NCBI GenBank assembly: GCA_028282865.1
Contig: JANQHA010000183.1
Location: forward strand, 1-10,175
Reading direction: 5' to 3'
Origin: Oligoflexales bacterium
GTDB lineage: Bacteria; Bdellovibrionota_B; Oligoflexia; Oligoflexales; CACXFL01
DNA length: 10,175 nucleotides
The position numbers were made by a program, and so were the translations under genes. Below, piece by piece: positions 1-10,175 of this stretch; the stretch's first letter is position 1; each line of letters opens with the position of its first letter. The notes beneath the pieces were generated by a model, which was given only the letters and a program-made list of their open reading frames with translations, was not told the origin of the DNA and made no database searches.

Positions 1-445
1 CCAGCAGTACTTTGTTATCATCGACTAAGCCTGAGAGCTCGATCAATAGCTTTCGCTTCTTAAGGCCTAGATTGATAAAGTTTTGAATCTCTTCGACAGT
101 AAATGGCTTACGCAAAAAACCATCTGCCATGTGATCAATTTTTTCTTGCATTTCATCATCGACAAACTCACCGCTGATCAGAAAAACTGGAATAGATGCG
201 TCAAAGTTACGAATTCTTTTCAGCAACTGAAGGCCGTTGGTTCGTGGCATACGAATGTCACTCAAAACCAAATCAATTTTCTTTTCCTTCAATACATCGG
301 TGGCTTCATTAGCATTCTTAACGACGATCACCTTCGAGAAAAATTTATTTAAATGGATCTTAAAGAATTTAAGAAGCGTCTGATCATCATCGACGATCAT
401 GATATAACTCTCACGGTCGTAATTTATCTTTGCCGCTTCAGCCAT
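1..445 (-). CDS. CheY-like response regulator receiver domain, 3' end outside window
   Basis: The reverse strand from ATG at 445 stays open to the window edge (148 codons), so the C-terminus is missing. The protein begins [20 protein letters not shown] and has the full receiver signature: acidic cluster D19-D20-D21, phosphoacceptor D63 in LVLSDIRMP, switch residue S91 in FLISGE, and the conserved Lys-Pro pair K113-P114 in LRKPF. It should therefore be a cytoplasmic phospho-accepting signal protein. After the receiver comes a basic helix (GLKKRKLL, about residues 127-134), and the reading frame runs on, so an output domain or a short tail may follow. A strong Shine-Dalgarno (AAGGAAGG) lies just upstream inside the preceding gene. 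The ATG overlaps that gene's stop codon by 8 bases (ATGGCTGA), which points to translational coupling. No partner histidine kinase is visible. The receiver call is firm; its regulatory target is unknown. Confidence 0.93.
438..445 (-). other. Stop/start overlap coupling DUF2282 gene to response regulator
   Basis: On the minus strand the bases ATGGCTGA contain the response regulator start ATG (445-443) and the TGA stop (440-438) of the DUF2282 gene in another frame. The Shine-Dalgarno of the second gene (AAGGAAGG) lies inside the last codons of the first. Such an arrangement favours re-initiation and ties the output of the two genes together. Confidence 0.8.
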
Positions 446-761
446 TATTTTTCCTTCCTTTTTTCTTAGCTAGAGTTTTTCTAACTTTCTCTTGTTCCGC
501 TTTGCAGGTTCCTTTTTTAACAAACTTCCACTCGTTAGGGTCGTAGTCATTGGTTGCCGCGCCAGCACAGCCATGATTATTGGCAGCACAGCTATTTTCA
601 CCAGCCTTCGCAATTCCTTTACAAGCGACATAGCCCTTGGGGGTTGGGTGAGCGTAACTAGAGCGACTCACTGCAAATATAGCTGGTACTAAAACCGTCA
701 ACCACCTTAGGCATTTAAACCTACTCTGTTTTTGTAATCCCACCTTTACTATTGATATCAT
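438..761 (-). CDS. BufA1-family (DUF2282) bufferin-type small exported precursor
   Basis: This 107-residue protein has a basic n-region, a hydrophobic core ([11 protein letters not shown], about residues 21-31) and a likely signal peptidase site after SSYA (residue 37). The mature part carries the four-cysteine DUF2282 pattern: C47 in [14 protein letters not shown]58, C65 in HGCAGAA, and C86 in VKKGTC, with DP-W-F between C65 and C86. In known bufferins (RiPPs) this family is modified on cysteines by the MNIO enzyme BufB (DUF692) with BufC, exported, and binds copper. That biochemistry is family knowledge; modification here is inference, because no bufB or bufC lies in the window. The Lys-rich tail (residues 87-107) is longer and more basic than I recall for the family. 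The ATG start overlaps the upstream TPR gene by 41 bases behind a weak GAGGG; a GTG at 743 is an alternative start. The stop overlaps the response regulator start. Confidence 0.87.
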
Positions 762-1917
762 CTATATAGACCCTCGCTAACTCAGAGATTTTTTCATTTT
801 TTTCCCTTACTTGGGATACTTCATAAAATAGCCTTAAAGCAGCCTGAGGTCTATTAAATTTAGTCATCATAAGCCTTCCTAGGTGAAACCTCGCCGCGGC
901 ACTGTCAGGGTCTAAATCGATAGCCCGGTTAAGGTTGGCTTTTGCATCCTGGTACCGACCCATCTTTTTATGGCACATGGCGAGGGCAATATATGCATTT
1001 ACGCTTCCAGGTGAGTAATTTATAGCTTTCTGGAGGTTCATTTCAGCGGGCTCTAGCTCACCGAGCTCAATCATGGAGTGGGCTCGGTTTATCAATGCCG
1101 GAGCAAAAGTTGGTTGTATCTTTAGAGAGCGATCGAAGTACTTCTGAGCTCGATCGTGATCCCCCTGACGCTGAAAAACCACTCCCATCAAATTTTGCAG
1201 ACTCGCACTATCTGAGGTCCTATCTAGGCCTTGCTTGACAATAAACTCTGCGATTTTAACCTTGTCATCCTTTAAATATGAATAGGCCAGACTAGTATAA
1301 GCGGGGGTAAAGCTTTTATCGACCCCAAGTAGGTCGCTAAGAATTTTCCGCCCCGACTTGATATCATTGGCTGTCAAGTGTGTTAGTGCAAGTACATATT
1401 TATATAAAAACACAAGTTCATGGCTTTCAGACTTATTAGATTCGATTAGTCCGCGAACAACCCCTAACCACCGAAAAGACTCATCAGACTCATGTTTTCT
1501 AAGATGAAGTTTAGCAATCTCGAGCAAAATATCCGCTCGGTCAGGGGCAAGCCGACGAGCATGCATAAAACTAGCATTGGCGGCAGCAAAGCGCCCTACC
1601 ACGACCTCCTTACGGCCGCGTTCTAGAAGCTCTTGAGGGTCGTTAGAACTAGGGGCAGAATCTAATTTCTGTTCCAGCATGCTTCTCTGCTTAGAGTTAG
1701 GTGCCGGCTTAAAAAAGGACTTCCAATCGATGGTCTCGTAATGCTGCAAAACAATTGGCTTAGCTGAAGTCGCAGAGCCCTTGGCGTCATCAAACTTAAC
1801 CGCCGATCTTTTCATATTAATATCTAAATCTTTGGGGTTAGGCTCAGAAGAACTAGTAAAGCACCCAGAAACGAATTGAATCGGAATTAATAATGTAAAA
1901 AGATAAAAACACTTCAT
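721..1917 (-). CDS. TPR-repeat lipoprotein (GltE-like in style)
   Basis: This 398-residue protein starts with a lipoprotein signal: [19 protein letters not shown] has the lipobox VSGC with lipidated Cys19. Position 20 is Phe, not Asp, which fits outer-membrane sorting. Residues 20-90 are a low-complexity polar linker. From about residue 93 to 375 there are roughly seven TPR units; clear ones start near residues 205, 239 ([20 protein letters not shown]), 273, 307 ([20 protein letters not shown]) and 341. TPR solenoids are protein-binding scaffolds, so an assembly or tethering role at the outer membrane periplasmic face is likely. Architecture and length resemble the gliding lipoprotein GltE of Myxococcus, but TPR similarity alone cannot prove orthology. 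The ATG directly follows the TAG stop of the previous gene, with GGAG upstream inside that gene. Confidence 0.88.
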
Positions 1918-4900
1918 CTAGGGGCTCCATTGAGTAGGCATATCGGTGTACGAAGCTGTCGGTAGTGAATCTGTTGACTCTATATCGTCGTCCAACACCC
2001 CGTAGCCAGACAGCCGGATAGAGGATTTTTTGATCCATTCGTTGCCGCGGTACGCCTGGGGGTTTCGTCGTCGCTCTAGCAAGTTATTGCTAAGATATTT
2101 CTTTGCTAGTTTACGTAGACGGTCAGCCGATTTCTTTGATCGGCTTATTAATGCCGAGTTAGCTTTAGCACCCAGACGACTAGAGATGCTCGTAAGATCA
2201 TCGGCATAATTTTCAGAGGCCTCTGCCAGCCGATAACGTGCCTGCGGAGCCCAGCGATAGTCGTTGCCTTTAGTCACCTCAGCATAATTGGTAACCATAT
2301 TTCGGTAATAACTATTTTTCTGCCGAATATTTTCGCCGACGTTATCTCCTCGCTCGTAAATATCAAAGTCTTCGAAAGCGTCCCTGGACTCTTCGCCTAA
2401 AAGAAAGTGAACCTCTCCGTGAACTGCGCTATAGACACCACCATCAATACTATTTTTCTGCCTTCTTAAGTTAGACGATATCGCAGTCAATGTCTTTAGA
2501 TAAGCATCATATTTACCGCTTCTTCGCAGAGCCTTGGCATACGCCAAATCTGCTGAGACCCGTTCAGAGGCACCCTTCGCCAACTTGCGATTCTTCTCAG
2601 CAATTTCTAGAGACATTGCGTTGTCATTACCTTTCGCAAAAAAGTCAATTGATCTCGCGTAAGAAGAGGTTTTATCTCTCTGGTTCTTGGAGCGTTCAGC
2701 AATCAATTTAACAGCTATACCAGCAGTTTTAAAATCGTTCTCAGAGACAGCAAGGCTCTCAGAACGTCGAAGGCTAGTCAGCGCACGCGAGTGCTTAGGG
2801 AATTTTTGGCCCAGTAGCAAATATGCTTGCGCAGCTTCCGCAAACCGAACCTGAAACTCGTAAGACCGAGCCATAAGGTATTGCATATCGCCACCAAACT
2901 TTTTCATACCTTGCTTCTGGTAAAATTCCGCTGCCTCAAGTGCAGAGCTCCACTGCCCAGCAATTGCCAGCATGTAGGCTCCATCTCGCAAGATTTTATC
3001 TCTGTTCGGGATTGCCTTGAACTCCTTCGCAATCTCAACTAGGAAAATTCCGGCTTCAGCAATTTCACCTTTATTATTTAACCGTTTCCCCTCATCAAGG
3101 GCTGCGGTTGAAATAACTCCCATAAGCTCATTACCTAAGTTGACTCCCAAGCTGCTCCAGTCCTCAAGTTTTAAGAACCTACGGGTTAGTGCTACCACAT
3201 CTCGACTCTTACCTTGTTTAATACTCGCCGCAATCAGGCCTCTGATTGCTGAAGCTCGCTGTGAGGTATTAGGTTTGGATATTAATACCCGCTCCCAATA
3301 TCTGACTGCATTCTGATCCTGGCCATAATCGCGATATGAGGAGGCCATAACTAATAGTAAGTCTACAGCTCTGGACCTACGTGGGAAACGGTTGGCAAAT
3401 TTATCGACTGAAGCGCGAAGATCAGCGATCGATCTTTTAACCGATTCATCATTTTTAGGCTGCATTCCTCGCTTGATCGATTTTGCAAATACTTCTCGCC
3501 ACCTTTTCTCACGAGTCAACACTAACTGATACGAAGCAACTTCAAGAGTTACGTCGTCGAGTTTGTAGTTTTTAGTAAGGTCAGCATAGCGTTTTGCAGC
3601 CTCAACATTCTTTGAAGAGAAGAAGTAGCAATGAGCGACCCTGAGTCGCCAATGGTTGCTTTTTGCTGAGTGAGGCTTGAATTTTATAAGGCTCTCGTAC
3701 AGCCCGGCAGACTTCATAAAATTATTAAGATTTCCAGACCTTAAACCGTAATCGTAGTGATAAGCAGCGGCAGCGGCAGCGGCCGACTCGGCACGTTGCT
3801 CCATATCTTTTAGGAGTTCAAACTGATTCTTATAGCGAACTCGCCATAGGCTGTTTTTAGGCAGAAGCATCGCTAAGCGCTCTAAAGCATATATTTTATT
3901 TCGCACGTCACCAGTACTGTTATAGCTTGTAGCTAAAAGCCCGTACCATCTGGGCACTAAAGAGCTATCTGAGAAGCGCTCGACTGAAAACTCAGCAACT
4001 CTAATCGCTCGTTTAACGAGCTTATTCTTTTCCAAACGCTCGAGCATTCTATTTGCGACAAATGGAGCCGAGGCAAGTATTGACCTATTACCAAGCACGC
4101 GCTTGACTCGCCTATAGTCGTTTATCTCATAGAGTGAATCCGCCAAAATATCTATTAAGTCCCGCTTCATCTTACCCCACTCCTCTGGGCCCGGAAGCTG
4201 CCAACCTGGAGTTAAGGCTGATAATGCGTACCGGATTGCAGACTCTAGATCAGTAGTTCGGTAGCCACCCCATGCTAAACGGTAAATAATATCTATATGG
4301 AACTGTTGGAAGTCTTTGGCATTACCAGATTTCATCATAGAGTTAGCAGCTTGATAGTAGTCTATGGCTTTCTTTGGATTTTCTCGGTCAAAATAGTAGT
4401 CACCTATCGCCAAATTAGCTTGCAACACGTACTCGGACTTTTCGGGCATAGCTGCGAGCCGGCTCCACACCGGAAGAGCAGACTCCATGCGACTTTCTTT
4501 TTCAAGAAGCGATCCAAGAAAATATAATACTTGCGACCTACGCGAAAAAGATGGGTAATTCTTGTCAATTCCACTGAGAACATCAATAGCCTGGTTTCGA
4601 TAACTTGAAGCAATATCTGTATTGGTTCTCGCATATATTTTCGCAAATAAATTATATATTTGAGAAAGATTAAACAGAATATGTGCGCGATTTGTTGCGT
4701 TTGGATACTGCTTTAAATGTGCTCGATATTTTTTCTCCGCACTGCCAAGTTTTGCGATTGAGTCTTTGTAAAACTGGGCTCTTTTAGCCTCGTATTCATC
4801 AGTGATTTTCTTGTTCTTTTGCTCAATCTCTTTCCGCCCTTCTTCGGAGATCTTTTTTTCATACTCGGAGAAGGCGCTCCAATACTCTTGAAAAGCCTTA

Positions 4901-5016
4901 AGAGAATCAGGATTAGGAACATCACCTGATAGCTTAATCTGTGATCTCGCGCTAGACGCTACGCCAGCGATCAGGGACAGTAAGAATAAATTTATTAGAT
5001 TTATCTTGGTTGCCAT
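1918..5016 (-). CDS. Giant exported TPR-repeat protein, 1032 residues
   Basis: The N-terminus MATKINLINLFLLSLIAGVA is a Sec signal peptide, with cleavage probable near SSARS (about residue 25). Residues 45-100 are charged and helical (EYEKKISEEGRKEIEQ), likely a coiled coil. Most of residues 105-960 is a helical-hairpin solenoid with TPR-type units, for example around 162-190 (VLYFLGSLLEKESRMESAL), 197-225 (LQANLAIGDYYFDRENPKKA) and about 450-480. No catalytic motif is visible. The protein is expected to be a large periplasmic scaffold, similar in style to TPR proteins of myxobacterial gliding clusters; function is inferred from architecture only. A seven-alanine run occupies residues 412-418. 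The start has a good Shine-Dalgarno (AGGGAG, 5 bases upstream) and overlaps the previous gene by 16 bases. The C-terminal 50 residues are polar and probably disordered. Confidence 0.9.
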   Translation of the reverse strand: MATKINLINLFLLSLIAGVASSARSQIKLSGDVPNPDSLKAFQEYWSAFSEYEKKISEEGRKEIEQKNKKITDEYEAKRAQFYKDSIAKLGSAEKKYRAHLKQYPNATNRAHILFNLSQIYNLFAKIYARTNTDIASSYRNQAIDVLSGIDKNYPSFSRRSQVLYFLGSLLEKESRMESALPVWSRLAAMPEKSEYVLQANLAIGDYYFDRENPKKAIDYYQAANSMMKSGNAKDFQQFHIDIIYRLAWGGYRTTDLESAIRYALSALTPGWQLPGPEEWGKMKRDLIDILADSLYEINDYRRVKRVLGNRSILASAPFVANRMLERLEKNKLVKRAIRVAEFSVERFSDSSLVPRWYGLLATSYNSTGDVRNKIYALERLAMLLPKNSLWRVRYKNQFELLKDMEQRAESAAAAAAAYHYDYGLRSGNLNNFMKSAGLYESLIKFKPHSAKSNHWRLRVAHCYFFSSKNVEAAKRYADLTKNYKLDDVTLEVASYQLVLTREKRWREVFAKSIKRGMQPKNDESVKRSIADLRASVDKFANRFPRRSRAVDLLLVMASSYRDYGQDQNAVRYWERVLISKPNTSQRASAIRGLIAASIKQGKSRDVVALTRRFLKLEDWSSLGVNLGNELMGVISTAALDEGKRLNNKGEIAEAGIFLVEIAKEFKAIPNRDKILRDGAYMLAIAGQWSSALEAAEFYQKQGMKKFGGDMQYLMARSYEFQVRFAEAAQAYLLLGQKFPKHSRALTSLRRSESLAVSENDFKTAGIAVKLIAERSKNQRDKTSSYARSIDFFAKGNDNAMSLEIAEKNRKLAKGASERVSADLAYAKALRRSGKYDAYLKTLTAISSNLRRQKNSIDGGVYSAVHGEVHFLLGEESRDAFEDFDIYERGDNVGENIRQKNSYYRNMVTNYAEVTKGNDYRWAPQARYRLAEASENYADDLTSISSRLGAKANSALISRSKKSADRLRKLAKKYLSNNLLERRRNPQAYRGNEWIKKSSIRLSGYGVLDDDIESTDSLPTASYTDMPTQWSP
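3764..3783 (-). repeat. Short hexanucleotide tandem repeat coding for polyalanine
   Basis: On the plus strand gcagcg occurs three times in tandem followed by gc. On the coding strand this gives alternating GCC and GCT codons, producing seven consecutive alanines (residues 412-418) in the giant TPR protein. Change by whole units would keep the reading frame. Confidence 0.85.
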
Positions 5017-7310
5017 AACACTCCCTGTTCGATGTTCTGTAAGCTATCTTTTAATATCTGCTGCTCTAGTTGATAACGTTTATCTTCTCGCTCTTTATTC
5101 AGAGAGACTTTTTCATATTGAAGCCACTCTAAGTCAGCCTGCCATTTTTGAGTGTTAGCCATCTGTTGATCCAATTTATCGTGGTAAAACTGAACCATCG
5201 GCTTAATGCCCTCGCGCATAGCTTCTCCGAGCTTTGATAACAAGATTTGTTGTCTAGCATGCAGAGCATCATGACGAGAGATCAAAGATTGAATTCTATC
5301 AATATTTGTTTTCAAATGCTTCTTTGCATACCCGTCGAAGGCAACAATATTCTCGTAAAGTTTACGATTAACATACTCCCAGCGCTTCCAAGCTTTTGCA
5401 AAGGACATATAAGTCACGAACACCGGCGAGTCACGCTTATCTTGCATAAACCTATCAATAATCAGGTATTCTTCGTTGAGTAGATTTGCATACCGAGCGT
5501 GCAGAGTCTTTGCAGCCCTGTGAGGACTCTGTTTAACAATCTCCATAACCTTACTAGTACGAATAACCTCGAGAGATCGAGCAAGATACTCCTCTAGCTT
5601 AGAAATAGATCTTTCAACAGATTTTAACTTTGCTCTTTTCACATCGTCTATAGACTCAGAATTACTAAAAAACAACTGCGCCGCTGATCGTTCAGCATGA
5701 AGCCTTCTTAGACGATCTTGCTTCTGCGCAATATCCTTAGTCAGGTCAAGCGCGTTTGACCAATTTGCCCAGATTTCTTTGCGCCGCTTCATTTTAGATG
5801 GAGCTGAAAAAAGATCAAAACGGCGTTTGCGAGATATTTCGAGAGAATTTTTTTCTAGGTCAGATAAAGAATCCTTAATCGCATTTTGCATACTAAAAAT
5901 GAGCCTATGCCCAACCACCAAAGCTTTTTCAGATAAATGTTCGTATTGCTTGCTGCGATTGATCCAGCTAGGTTTAAACTGCTTTAGGTTCGTCCGGCCA
6001 AGTGTGTATATAAGGTTTCTTAGATTAGCCCGACTGTCTGATATTCTCCGGCTAAGCTCGGCTAACTTACTATAGAGCTTATGACCAAGAACGGCGTCTG
6101 GAGAATGTAAAATCTGGCCATTACTCAGCTTAAATAGGTTATCAATATCTCTCTGAGAAATCTCCGAAGATTTCGCATAAGTTTGATCAATCCATTGCCG
6201 GTATCTACTAAGCTGCTCGTCCGCGTCATTCATCGATGACTTAGCCAGATCCCACTTTCCATCTTTTAAATAGAAGTAGCTCATAAGGGACTTTAGTTGA
6301 AAAACCCGATTATCTGACGGGAAAATCTTCAAAAATTTCTCAGCCCCAGATCTGGCCCGACTACCGTCCTTCAATTCGACATATGCATAAATGCTCTCAA
6401 ATAAAGCGTCTTTATAAAGACTCGACTCCTCCGAGATCTGTCTATAATACGACAGCGCCTCAGAGGTATTTTTAGTCGTCATATTGATCCTAGCTAGTGC
6501 TAAAAGAGAATACTCGGCAAACTCTTTACTAGGACCACTATTTTTGGAAACATTTTCTAATAGAATTTTCTTAGCTGCCTGAAAATTCCTCTGACCGAGG
6601 AGTAGCAACGCATGAAAATACCTTGAACGAGCGGTTAGATTAGGGTCAGCGCTCATTGCAGCCGACCGTTCAAACCATTCACTTGCGATATTTACTTCTC
6701 CAGATTCGCGAGCGCTATTGGCAGCGTAATAAAGCAACTCAGCTTTTTGTGTCTTTGTCATACTAATACCCACTACCGCAGAAAACAGCTTCTTAAGGTC
6801 TTGGTTGGTAATGGTTGAATGATTGGTTGCAAGTGGAATGGCATAATGCAACACCCTCAGAAGTTGGGGGTTATCTGGCTTCTCTACAGTCGTATGAATC
6901 GCTACATACCTCAAATAGGCCTGCAGCGCCTGAATGTCCATCCCAATTTCCTGATAGGACCTGCCCAGCGTGTAGAGTGACTTCATATAATCAGAGGTCT
7001 CTGGGGATTGGCTTAACTTCTGGTATGCCAACGATTCGCGGATTGCCGCCAAATACATCTCTTGGGCAAAGTATTTCTGCGCGTTCATAAATGATCTTTT
7101 GGCTGCCAGCATCACAGCTCTAGCCGAATGTTCACTGTTTAAGACCTCAAGAGTACTAACTTGATGGTCAATATTCTTCAATGTAGTGAGTCCACGCTCG
7201 ATCTCAACCTCTGGTACCGAAACAGCCTGTTTCGCTACTCCAGAAGCAAAACAGACTGGAATAGATAACAGAAGGTAAATCAATATGCTTGTTATCAGGC
7301 GCAAAGTCAT
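5001..7310 (-). CDS. Exported protein with N-terminal TPR-like and C-terminal coiled-coil halves
   Basis: This 769-residue protein begins with a Sec signal peptide (MTLRLITSILIYLLLSIPVC, cleavage probable after CFA at about 22). Cys20 is not in a lipobox (IPVC). Residues 65-370 are TPR-like hairpins, for example 104-135 (YMKSLYTLGRSYQEIGMDIQ), 190-220 and 265-300 (AEYSLLALARINM). Residues about 460-765 change character to long, charged, heptad-like helices rich in Lys, Arg, Glu and Gln (for example DIAQKQDRLRRLHAERSAAQ near 526-545), with W515, W641, W644, W723 and W729. I see no enzyme motif. It is likely a periplasmic scaffold whose coiled-coil half may oligomerise or bind the coiled coil of the upstream gene product. 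The start codon overlaps that gene's stop (ATGA), with AAGG about 7 bases upstream. The fold assignment is fairly sure; the role is unknown. Confidence 0.88.
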   Translation of the reverse strand: MTLRLITSILIYLLLSIPVCFASGVAKQAVSVPEVEIERGLTTLKNIDHQVSTLEVLNSEHSARAVMLAAKRSFMNAQKYFAQEMYLAAIRESLAYQKLSQSPETSDYMKSLYTLGRSYQEIGMDIQALQAYLRYVAIHTTVEKPDNPQLLRVLHYAIPLATNHSTITNQDLKKLFSAVVGISMTKTQKAELLYYAANSARESGEVNIASEWFERSAAMSADPNLTARSRYFHALLLLGQRNFQAAKKILLENVSKNSGPSKEFAEYSLLALARINMTTKNTSEALSYYRQISEESSLYKDALFESIYAYVELKDGSRARSGAEKFLKIFPSDNRVFQLKSLMSYFYLKDGKWDLAKSSMNDADEQLSRYRQWIDQTYAKSSEISQRDIDNLFKLSNGQILHSPDAVLGHKLYSKLAELSRRISDSRANLRNLIYTLGRTNLKQFKPSWINRSKQYEHLSEKALVVGHRLIFSMQNAIKDSLSDLEKNSLEISRKRRFDLFSAPSKMKRRKEIWANWSNALDLTKDIAQKQDRLRRLHAERSAAQLFFSNSESIDDVKRAKLKSVERSISKLEEYLARSLEVIRTSKVMEIVKQSPHRAAKTLHARYANLLNEEYLIIDRFMQDKRDSPVFVTYMSFAKAWKRWEYVNRKLYENIVAFDGYAKKHLKTNIDRIQSLISRHDALHARQQILLSKLGEAMREGIKPMVQFYHDKLDQQMANTQKWQADLEWLQYEKVSLNKEREDKRYQLEQQILKDSLQNIEQGVLWQPR

Positions 7311-8056
7311 TGGCTAACCTTTTTGTCACTGCTACCCTGATCAGTTGACTCACCTTGAGCCTTTGGGTAGTTCTTAGTTGAGTTCTTAGCTAAATCTATC
7401 GACCATCTTTTCTTGAATACGCCATCAGGAATGTCTATTTCAAACGATCTTGAGACTACCTGATAATCGCCGTTAATAAAGGGAAAGTGATCAGAGCTCT
7501 TAGAAGATATCCGAGCATCAATCGTCACCCGGTGTTTCCCTGGGCTCATCGGCCCACTATACAAAGGAATACTTTTAGACGGTATCCACAGACCGTTCGA
7601 ATCATTAAGAGTATAAACCTCGTATCCATCGATATGTACTAGCAGTGAGCGTAATGCAATCTTGTCGGGATTCCCGATCAAGCCTTCAATTTCGACAACA
7701 TTATCAATTTTTGCAGTCTCCAATAACGACTGCCTGGCTAAATGAACCTCAGAGTCAATTTTGTTGATGTCATCCTCAAGTTTACTGATAGCTTCCGACA
7801 ATGAGATTAGTTTTTGACTTTCGTTAAGATCAGCCTCAATTTTTTCCTGTTTAAACTTAACCAATCCCTCATCGCTTTTAAGGTACTTCTTGGAGCCAAA
7901 GCTCATAGGAGCAGAGGTTTTAACTTCGTTTTCCTGTAGCCGCTTTTCAAGTTGATCGAGAATCGACTCCACTTCATTAAGAGGTTTTTGAGCCTTAGCT
8001 TGCGCAAGGGCCAAGCTTGAGTTCATCCACAGCAACAAAAATATTAAATTATTCAT
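7307..8056 (-). CDS. Periplasmic coiled-coil plus beta-domain protein (family often mislabelled dihydrolipoamide acetyltransferase)
   Basis: This 249-residue protein has a short signal peptide (MNNLIFLLLWMNSSLALAQA, cleavage near residue 20). It then has two helical stretches predicted as coiled coil (about 25-45 and 66-115, KFKQEKIEADLNESQKLISL) and a compact beta-rich domain at about 118-225. That domain includes VHIDGYEVYTL, SIPLYSGPMSPGKHRVTID and FINGDYQVVSRSFEIDI. The pattern of an inner 'DG' strand, a 'PG.H.V' turn and a late 'G.Y.V.....F' strand recalls periplasmic proteins of myxobacteria that databases call dihydrolipoamide acetyltransferase; nothing here suggests lipoyl chemistry. 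The C-terminus is a polar tail. It sits 3 bases after the transglycosylase gene, with AAAGG about 9 bases from ATG, and overlaps the next TPR gene by ATGA, so it probably works with that TPR/coiled-coil protein. Confidence 0.82.
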   Translation of the reverse strand: MNNLIFLLLWMNSSLALAQAKAQKPLNEVESILDQLEKRLQENEVKTSAPMSFGSKKYLKSDEGLVKFKQEKIEADLNESQKLISLSEAISKLEDDINKIDSEVHLARQSLLETAKIDNVVEIEGLIGNPDKIALRSLLVHIDGYEVYTLNDSNGLWIPSKSIPLYSGPMSPGKHRVTIDARISSKSSDHFPFINGDYQVVSRSFEIDIPDGVFKKRWSIDLAKNSTKNYPKAQGESTDQGSSDKKVSQ

Positions 8057-8059
8057 ATA

Positions 8060-9292
8060 CTAAAACCTTTCTTGACGAGCTTTTGAAGATCGACCAACAG
8101 CTAGTTTTACCGAGCTTGCATACGCCGCAGGAACATATATATTAAAGCCAGCAGGCAGCGGTGAGTAATGATAATGCTTGAGAGCCCTAGGGGTCAGGCA
8201 TAAATTGTAACGCGATAATAAGTCCTTATTTATAGAAGTTTTAGAAACAAGCCTTGCTATAGTAATCGGCTTTTTAAGTTTGACTTTCATCACATCATTT
8301 CGGTAAAACCTCTTAGGTTTATCAGAAAAGTAACTTCGATAGATATTTCTAGCTGCAATAAATTCAGCGTAAAAATTCTTACTTGCAAACCCAAAGCTTT
8401 TAGCTCGGTAGTTCTTAATAATATAGCCCAAGTCGTCGGTTCCCATCCGACGTTTTGCTTTTGCCATACCAGCCCGGCCGAAATTGTATGCAGTCACAGC
8501 TAGCGGCCAGCTTCTTAGATGCCGGTAGTTTTTAGCTAACAACTTAGCTGCACCCTCTGAGGCTTTGTATGGCGAGTTGCGTTCATCAATAAACTTATCC
8601 ACTTTCATGAATTGCCTAGCGGTCGCTGGCATAAACTGCCAAATCCCTGATGCCCCTACCTTTGAAACAGCTTTTGGATTAAACATAGATTCGACAAAAG
8701 CAATACGTGTTAGATCGATAGGAAGATTTTCCCTCTGAAAAACTCTCTCCATGAAAGGCAGGAATTTATAAGACCGTTCTACAGCTCGTTTAAACTCGTC
8801 TGCTAAACCAGTTTGACTCCGGATAGAGACCTGGCCTTTTAATAGGAGTTTCAGTGCGGCTGGCTTGGTTTTATAAACATTAAAAATGCGACGCTCTATC
8901 GCACCAGTAAGCACCGCCTTACGACCTTTAGTGTGAAACCTCTTTAAGGCCATCTGATACCTCGAAAGGTACCCATCAGATATTCGATTTCTATACGATC
9001 GATCGGTCAGAACTTTGCCTCCCAGACTCTTAGCGAAAACTTTAAAATCTATCAAATCAGTTACCAACTCCGGAAAATTCGCATCGTGAATAAGCACTGT
9101 AGTAGATGGGTATGATGCAAAAATCTTTTCCCAAAATCTAACTTGCTTCTGCACATGGCTCGATTCGGACAAATAGTGTGTACGGTCGAAACCTCCAACA
9201 TGCTTAGCTGCAAGAAGTTGATTTCCAAACCCCAATGCATACAAAGTAAGTGCACCAGCAAACACAACTGATTTAATTTGTTGGTTAGCCAT
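8060..9292 (-). CDS. Exported SLT-domain (MltD-like) lytic transglycosylase
   Basis: The protein is 410 residues from the ATG at 9292. Residues 1-29 form a signal peptide (VVFAGALTLYALGFGNQLLAA). Residues 52-85 carry the FW-KIF-YPSTTVLIHD segment common in delta-type transglycosylases. The SLT domain spans about 177-320: catalytic Glu201 in AFVESMFNP, then SKVGASGIWQFMPATAR (210-226) and LAVTAYNFG (264-272), the standard goose-lysozyme-fold motifs. Such enzymes cleave the MurNAc-GlcNAc bond of peptidoglycan to 1,6-anhydro ends in the periplasm. Residues about 342-390 (TIARLVSKTSINKDLL...YVP) look like one degenerate LysM-type wall-binding module. A GTG four codons upstream (9304) is also in frame, but it lies inside the GAGGTG Shine-Dalgarno that serves the ATG, so I reject it as start. 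As first gene of the cluster it may open the wall for the TPR assembly. Confidence 0.94.
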   Translation of the reverse strand: MANQQIKSVVFAGALTLYALGFGNQLLAAKHVGGFDRTHYLSESSHVQKQVRFWEKIFASYPSTTVLIHDANFPELVTDLIDFKVFAKSLGGKVLTDRSYRNRISDGYLSRYQMALKRFHTKGRKAVLTGAIERRIFNVYKTKPAALKLLLKGQVSIRSQTGLADEFKRAVERSYKFLPFMERVFQRENLPIDLTRIAFVESMFNPKAVSKVGASGIWQFMPATARQFMKVDKFIDERNSPYKASEGAAKLLAKNYRHLRSWPLAVTAYNFGRAGMAKAKRRMGTDDLGYIIKNYRAKSFGFASKNFYAEFIAARNIYRSYFSDKPKRFYRNDVMKVKLKKPITIARLVSKTSINKDLLSRYNLCLTPRALKHYHYSPLPAGFNIYVPAAYASSVKLAVGRSSKARQERF

Positions 9293-9301
9293 TGAAATAG
9301 C

Positions 9302-9307
9302 CACCTC
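9302..9307 (-). promoter_or_regulatory. Shine-Dalgarno deciding the transglycosylase start
   Basis: GAGGTG on the minus strand ends 9 bases before the ATG at 9292. It includes the alternative in-frame GTG (9304-9302), which has no ribosome binding site of its own at a useful distance. This favours the ATG start. Confidence 0.7.
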
Positions 9308-9398: not shown

Positions 9399-10175
9399 CT
9401 ATTTGAGCTTATATTGTGAGGCAATCTCAGAAATACACCCTAAACGGATATCAACCACATCATACATGTCAACATCATGACACTCTATCCAGCCACCGTT
9501 GGGGTCACCAGGAGCATGGCTAAACTGGATTCGACACCTACCCTTATGACCGACTGGGCCATCGGAAAGTTTGACATATTTTGCGTCTAGGTGATAAGAG
9601 CGCTTAGTACTTACAATCCAATGATCTGTGCTTTTCTTAGGCTTCGAATCCTCAGCATTTTTTTTCTCTTTTGTTTTCGAAACTTTGGTCAATTTCTTTG
9701 GAATCTTAACAGTCCATTTCAAGCCATCTAGTAACGGAAGATGAACGATGTTCATATTATTTTCCTTCGAAAGCAAACAGTCTGCCAAAGCTACGACCCG
9801 AGGAAATTTCTTGCCGTAATCAATTACGTGAGCAAGTCGGACATTACTGGTCCAAGTGTACATGTTGCCAAAGTCTTTGGGACCTGTAGATATTTTCCAA
9901 GTAAGAGAGCCATCGGTAGCCAACATAGACAGATCAAAATTTAGCTTTCTTTTCTTGCAAACCTTTTCATCTTCTAATTTTTTGGAGCGAGTGACAGTGA
10001 AGCAGACGCCTGGTGGCGGGTTGATCTCTATCTTTCCAAAATACTCGAGCTGGCTTTTTAGGTGCCGTGGATCCTTAACCATATCTGCCCTGATATGGAC
10101 TTGTTCACCGATGGGAGGGTCAAAGTATTTTTTCATCACACTGTGACGTTGGTCTACCGTCATCCGATCATGAAT
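9399..10175 (-). CDS. Hypothetical Cys-containing protein, 5' end probably outside window
   Basis: The frame is open from the window edge to TAG at 9401-9399. The first in-frame ATG (10163) has no Shine-Dalgarno and no signal peptide follows, and the codons upstream of it are also open, so the true start is probably beyond the window. From that ATG 254 residues are visible. They hold six cysteines (54, 69, 129, 210, 228, 243), consistent with disulfides in an exported protein. Many alternating beta-type segments are seen (GVCFTVTRS, GSLTWKISTG, DHWIVSTKRSYHLD, CRIQFSH, GGWIECHDVDMYDVVDIRLG), and a Lys-rich linker lies at about 154-178. I recognise no family and assign no function. A promoter lies between it and the operon downstream, so it may be a separate unit. 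Confidence 0.72.
   Translation of the reverse strand: MHDRMTVDQRHSVMKKYFDPPIGEQVHIRADMVKDPRHLKSQLEYFGKIEINPPPGVCFTVTRSKKLEDEKVCKKRKLNFDLSMLATDGSLTWKISTGPKDFGNMYTWTSNVRLAHVIDYGKKFPRVVALADCLLSKENNMNIVHLPLLDGLKWTVKIPKKLTKVSKTKEKKNAEDSKPKKSTDHWIVSTKRSYHLDAKYVKLSDGPVGHKGRCRIQFSHAPGDPNGGWIECHDVDMYDVVDIRLGCISEIASQYKLK

Follow-up and report, generated by a model that had tools for sequence, protein, structure and literature searches.

The window, i.e. the complete stretch of 10,175 nt analysed here, is an entire contig (C433) of the Oligoflexales assembly. Its large genes are on the minus strand, a strand that the initial annotation had not specified for the ORF: a 254-aa protein comes first and is followed by a lytic transglycosylase, a 249-aa protein, TPR proteins of 769 and 1032 aa, a TPR lipoprotein, the DUF2282 protein and a response regulator (Table 1). 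The DUF2282 gene, an ORF of 107 codons with its ATG at position 761 and its TGA at 438–440, is tightly fitted between its neighbours. The last 41 nt of the lipoprotein gene overlap its start, and its stop codon and the start of the response regulator gene share an overlap of 8 nt (ATGGCTGA). Because of these overlaps on both sides, and since the possible Shine-Dalgarno sequence of the regulator lies inside the codons of the DUF2282 protein's tail, co-transcription of the DUF2282 gene with the envelope operon is likely. A scan of positions 1–2200 for promoters and terminators yielded about the same number of sites as shuffled sequences. The neighbours named in the initial annotation, a TPR lipoprotein upstream and a response regulator downstream, are thus confirmed. 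The same is true of its remark that no MNIO gene is in view, since profile searches detected neither an MNIO nor a DUF2063 gene anywhere on the contig. Directly downstream, in the place of bufB in a canonical bufABC locus, lies the response regulator, and the operon contains no bufC. Upstream of the operon and on the same strand, positions 9399–10163 encode the 254-aa protein, which has no Pfam or NCBIfam match and no matching ORF in the relatives compared.

Table 1. Features of the window (positions in nt; all on the minus strand).
Feature	Positions	Strand	Basis
Response regulator (receiver domain), truncated at the contig end	2..445	-	PF00072, 86.1 bits; 48–61% identity to 15 aligned operon homologues
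Gene of a bufferin precursor, DUF2282 (Buf1/BufA1-type), 107 aa	438..761	-	ORF; PF10048, 58.1 bits (cut-off 22.4)
Basic C-terminal tail, residues 87–107, predicted part of a helix (86–106)	441..503	-	Net charge +7; AlphaFold2 pLDDT block means of 94, 92 and 77 over residues 81–107
Possible Shine-Dalgarno sequence GGAAGG of the response regulator, within the basic-tail codons	453..458	-	Inspection
Four-cysteine core, C47 to C86	504..623	-	Residue invariance in 47 chosen DUF2282 proteins
Putative Sec signal peptide, residues 1–37	651..761	-	By eye: basic n-region, hydrophobic stretch
TPR lipoprotein	721..1917	-	TPR Pfam matches; C-terminus in register with 15 relatives; "lipoprotein" from the leader by eye
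Possible Shine-Dalgarno sequence GAGGG of the DUF2282 gene, within the TPR lipoprotein gene	771..775	-	Inspection
1032-aa TPR/CpoB-like protein, conserved operon	1918..5016	-	
769-aa TPR protein, conserved operon	5001..7310	-	
249-aa protein without family, conserved operon	7307..8056	-	
MltD-like lytic transglycosylase with SLT domain, heading the conserved operon	8060..9304	-	PF01464, 83 bits

The 107-aa protein had been assigned to the DUF2282 family from its letters only, and the Pfam search bears this out: PF10048 matches residues 47–88 with an E-value of 8.7e-16 and 58.1 bits, compared with a cut-off of 22.4. All four cysteines that had been predicted, C47, C58, C65 and C86, are in place and invariant in an alignment of 47 proteins chosen from the DUF2282 proteins found, as are G49, A51, N56, H63, D74, W78 and G84. 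The DUF2282 proteins of two genomes, G018 and G043, were not extracted by the search pattern and are therefore in no alignment. As to the claimed BufA1-type pattern, the cysteine part is firmly established, while the signal peptide is plausible by eye. The NCBIfam bufferin models gave no match to the window protein; they were likewise silent on the two relatives from the phylum tested, one of which comes from a canonical locus. An AlphaFold2 model built from 41 sequences (mean pLDDT 71.7, pTM 0.49) contains strands at residues 44–48 and 78–82 and a C-terminal helix at 86–106, with low confidence for the N-terminal 40 residues. Solved structures compared with a profile of the family gave no match (best E-value 0.82). 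From its sequence, the ORF at 438–761 is a genuine, intact bufferin precursor of the Buf1/BufA1 type.

The initial annotation had called the C-terminal tail unusually basic and had taken this to fit a changed role. The first part stands. The net charge after C86 is exceeded by none of the 122 DUF2282 proteins listed (331 were found in all) and equalled by one, P0011, in a ranking that sets aside P0034, a tandem-domain protein misparsed by the pattern. The second part does not hold up well: the closest relative found, P0004 from G002:C20 (46% identity), has a similar tail (KKGTCDAMQSKVKAMMSKKKK, net charge +5 after the last cysteine), and its gene is a canonical bufA, situated directly before bufB and a DUF2063 gene. 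Hence, the tail was judged a weak sign of a changed role. A lysine-rich tail is also present in the second DUF2282 protein of the window's own genome, encoded on contig C527. We take the tail for a subtype feature that was probably extended by some five residues, which overlap the start region of the regulator.

The leader was examined with a profile derived from 120 bufferin N-termini, which was applied to 12 proteins and to 52 control N-termini taken from the other exported proteins of the operon; long leaders were trimmed beforehand at an internal Met chosen by script. The window leader scored -0.4 bits and thus within the controls, whereas the leader of the C527 protein reached 10.5 bits, above all 52 controls. 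Six leaders of MNIO-adjacent DUF2282 proteins also fell among the controls, namely those of G017 (-0.9 bits), G005, G012 and G002:C8 and two of G033 (G033:C2 with 1.4 bits). The score of 24.2 bits for G002:C20 lies above the controls but is uninformative, since this protein is itself part of the training set. According to preliminary evidence presented by Antoine et al. (PMC12452194), the signal peptide is part of what BufBC recognizes. The low score of the window leader would therefore lean against a modification of this precursor in trans, but with six MNIO-adjacent leaders among the controls the profile does not discriminate and the score decides nothing.

The operon around the precursor gene consists of six genes, for an MltD-like lytic transglycosylase, the 249-aa protein, two long TPR proteins, the TPR lipoprotein and the response regulator, and its order is kept across the relatives fetched (window 721–9304; L081–L098). 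Its 769-aa protein has matches in 34 of the 56 genomes searched, that is, in 33 relatives besides its own genome, and in 24 of these relatives the match is below 1e-20. Operon regions were fetched from 18 of the 24, and as far as their contigs reach, all 18 show the block from lytic transglycosylase to response regulator in the same order. The six genomes left out (G023, G024, G027, G028, G035 and G036) have no DUF2282 gene anywhere. An additional search with the regulator returned 30 loci, in 25 of which the lipoprotein gene precedes the regulator; the other five (L107, L121, L124, L127 and L128) were excluded from the count of gaps. For L112, whose lipoprotein match is under the 100-bit filter, the gap was counted by eye from the coordinates. 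As 16 of the 25, judged by their lengths, are contigs already among the 18 fetched, both sets together amount to 27 distinct relative contigs, and in all of them the gap between lipoprotein and regulator measures 12–107 nt and holds no DUF2282 gene.

The relatives have the operon but not the DUF2282 gene, which gives the latter the look of a lineage-specific insertion, placed between genes five and six of the operon and seen so far in one genome only. The insertion appears clean, because the C-terminus of the window lipoprotein and the N-terminus of the regulator both align with those of 15 relatives. A misassembly is conceivable but would have to have struck both junctions precisely. Base composition was considered as an indicator of foreign origin and gave no signal (GC content of 42.9% for the gene vs 42.8% for the contig).

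The phylum was searched for DUF2282 over 58 genomes, including the one studied here; the comparison with MNIO and DUF2063 genes extended over 56, which cover all 10 genomes bearing DUF2282. Fourteen DUF2282 loci were found in these 10 genomes. At nine of them an MNIO gene follows directly downstream, accompanied in eight cases by a DUF2063 gene, and bufA and bufB are spaced from an overlap to 27 nt apart. The remaining five are the C527 locus, located at a contig end, and four stand-alone genes, namely that of the window, G003:C1, G010:C18 and G010:C87. The three other stand-alone genes each have a different, unrelated neighbourhood; G010:C87, for example, lies between genes resembling those for ribose-phosphate pyrophosphokinase and ribosomal protein L25 (names given by eye). 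Both genomes concerned, G003 and G010, carry MNIO genes, of whatever subtype, and DUF2063 genes elsewhere. In the region of the stand-alone gene of G003 (L063, G003:C1:1258000-1275000), short ORFs such as FLGRAAPCQDNGGL recur many times and appear to represent a dispersed DNA repeat. Lipobox-like leaders occur on two DUF2282 proteins of the phylum, LTGC on the stand-alone G010:C87 (L015 1372-1719) and ALGC on G002:C8 (L012 1432-1755), which is encoded beside an MNIO gene; these motifs suggest lipoprotein bufferins of the Buf1 type.

The second DUF2282 gene of the same genome (C527:8761-9075) ends 51 nt before the end of its contig. Twelve nt past its stop codon, an ATG is followed by 13 open codons (MSLKLMRGLEGAG) that run to the last base. 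BufB proteins encoded beside DUF2282 genes in the phylum begin, for example, with MDTSKISGVGLGLR, MNSISGVGLSYR or MVVNLSEQADVGLNLR; of the nine bufB starts printed from the DUF2282-MNIO loci, five have G-A-G or G-V-G near the start and four do not. C527 probably carries the beginning of a bufABC locus interrupted by an assembly gap, an assignment that rests on the 13 codons. A nucleotide search of the C527 end against plasmids gave a single, uninformative match of 41 bases, and neither the last 87 bases of C527 nor the first 120 of the window have a second match in the assembly. Two close ORFs of about 100 aa on C527 (L005 3077-3376 and 4022-4324) share nearly identical first 35 residues (MILISDFSEFIRQIGLVAHIDDFEHLNIRP...).

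The assembly comprises 3.33 Mb in 683 contigs and is 90.13% complete and 2.69% contaminated. The whole-genome search for DUF692 and DUF2063 genes proposed in the initial annotation was positive for the former only. Searches with the PF05114 and NF050167 profiles revealed no BufB body in this 90%-complete assembly, the sole PF05114 match being an MNIO homologue of 453 aa on contig C99. A DUF2063 gene was found neither with the PF09836 profile nor with the BufC protein of a relative as query, the latter search having no positive control. A BufB profile match on contig C47 (11.4 bits, E-value 0.22) was dismissed as chance. For five MNIO proteins encoded beside DUF2282 genes of the phylum, BufB was the best NCBIfam model, with 214–304 bits, all below the model cut-off of 310. 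The C99 protein, by comparison, is nearer to ApyH (83.1 bits, cut-off 400) than to BufB (57.5 bits, cut-off 310). Its C-terminal extension (L004 1822-3183, G000:C99) looks membrane-spanning by eye, and no precursor was recognised. Going by eye, one of its neighbours encodes an uncharacterised protein; on the other side, a gene for a family-5 solute-binding protein precedes one for a histidine kinase carrying receiver domains.

How a precursor separated from bufB and bufC may function has been considered before. Sizeable proportions of Buf1 and Buf2 precursors are reported to lack an MNIO association, some being stand-alone, and both a modification by enzymes from another locus and a role without modification were proposed for them (Antoine et al. 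2025, PMC12452194). The stand-alone state of bufferin precursors is thus already known. The initial annotation had offered the same two readings, and of these we favour modification in trans, with a probability of roughly 0.6: a stand-alone Buf1 precursor, inserted in an envelope operon, would be modified by BufBC enzymes whose genes an assembly gap conceals. The preference derives from the contig of the second bufA, which ends 13 codons into a bufB-like ORF, and from Table 3 of PMC12452194, according to which only 21 of 4072 complete genomes with DUF2282 are without MNIO (27 others have MNIO but lack PME1). The MNIO genes downstream of nine of the 14 loci in the phylum and the MNIO- and DUF2063-bearing genomes of the other stand-alone copies speak for it as well. 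Against it stand the searches of the assembly, in which no BufB body and no DUF2063 gene were found, and the four of nine bufB starts without G-A/V-G. In this scenario, a bufA copy would have been inserted by duplication or transfer between the genes of the TPR lipoprotein and the response regulator, and would be expressed with the envelope operon rather than from a metal-responsive buf promoter. Gadgil et al. 2026 (PMC13097082) describe 5-thiooxazoles and divide the precursors into three groups, DUF2282 being one. Here C58 and C65 would be converted to 5-thiooxazoles in the cytoplasm by BufB-BufC of the C527 locus, and the outer cysteines C47 and C86 may form a disulphide. After export by Sec, the product could then buffer copper in the periplasm, the function described for bufferins (PMC12452194, PMC13097082).

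The other reading, rather unlikely in our view, is that the precursor stays unmodified and was taken up into the operon's envelope complex as a metal-binding or structural component, or that it serves the response regulator as an upstream metal sensor. Its insertion into an otherwise fixed-order operon, overlapping both neighbours, would suit such a role, as would the failure of the searches to find any BufBC in the assembly and the contrast between its leader, unlike those of bufferins, and the bufferin-like leader of C527, even though some MNIO-adjacent leaders score low too; PMC12452194 moreover allows for some unmodified precursors. Yet the motifs of the core that surround the central cysteines are preserved, a canonical bufABC relative has a similar basic tail, and an insertion in a single genome gives no sign of a conserved association with the operon. 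A further reading is a bystander: a duplicated bufA copy that landed in the operon without any particular connection to the envelope genes and either persists by chance or is in decay. The single occurrence and the unrelated places in which the other stand-alone genes of the phylum lie (e.g. G010:C87) speak for it. However, the ORF is intact with all invariant residues, has a plausible Shine-Dalgarno site and matches its neighbours in composition, and we regard such a bystander as unlikely. An enzyme for the precursor could also be sought in the C99 MNIO, as the only PF05114 match of the assembly, but its greater proximity to ApyH than to BufB, the lack of any DUF2063 match in the assembly and its unrelated neighbourhood led us to reject it as a very improbable maturase. 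Finally, the window ends inside the response regulator gene, and a search for contigs overlapping this end found none, so that bufB and bufC might be imagined just beyond the left edge, making this an ordinary buf operon. This is very unlikely: the order bufABC is described as strictly conserved (PMC12452194), but the gene after bufA is here a response regulator; PF05114 has no match on any of the 18 operon-bearing contigs fetched from relatives, and no BufB was found in the assembly.

Whether stand-alone precursors are modified in trans or work unmodified is a question raised in PMC12452194, and the present genome offers a natural test case for it. It contains two bufA genes, one stand-alone with a divergent leader and one that is probably the head of a bufABC locus, and hence a single BufBC pair could be tested on both. 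It is also conceivable, but quite doubtful, that the precursor is now coupled, as a component, to the conserved envelope machine and the response regulator that goes with it; it would then be a metal ligand or sensor located in the envelope, with or without thiooxazoles. If this link were true, the window gene would to our knowledge provide the first case of a bufferin linked to an envelope/response-regulator operon, our literature searches not having been aimed at this operon.

Compared with Buf1/BufA1 bufferins such as Buf1 of Caulobacter vibrioides (DUF2282, PF10048), the window protein shares the four cysteines and the core motifs, together with a signal peptide that is plausible by eye, but its gene has no adjoining bufB or bufC and is embedded in an operon of lytic transglycosylase, TPR and response regulator genes. 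The same core and a lysine-rich tail are found in G002:C20 from the same order, which in contrast is a canonical bufA ahead of bufB and a DUF2063 gene. The stand-alone genes G003:C1, G010:C18 and G010:C87, likewise of the same order, resemble the window gene in having no adjoining MNIO; they differ in their unrelated neighbourhoods and, in the case of G010:C87, in the lipobox-like leader. The stand-alone Buf1 precursor genes of Antoine et al. (PMC12452194) are like the window gene in that no MNIO gene is associated with them and in that the genome has another bufA; in the excerpts of that paper available, non-conserved flanks are handled as a class, and the operon of the window is not described.
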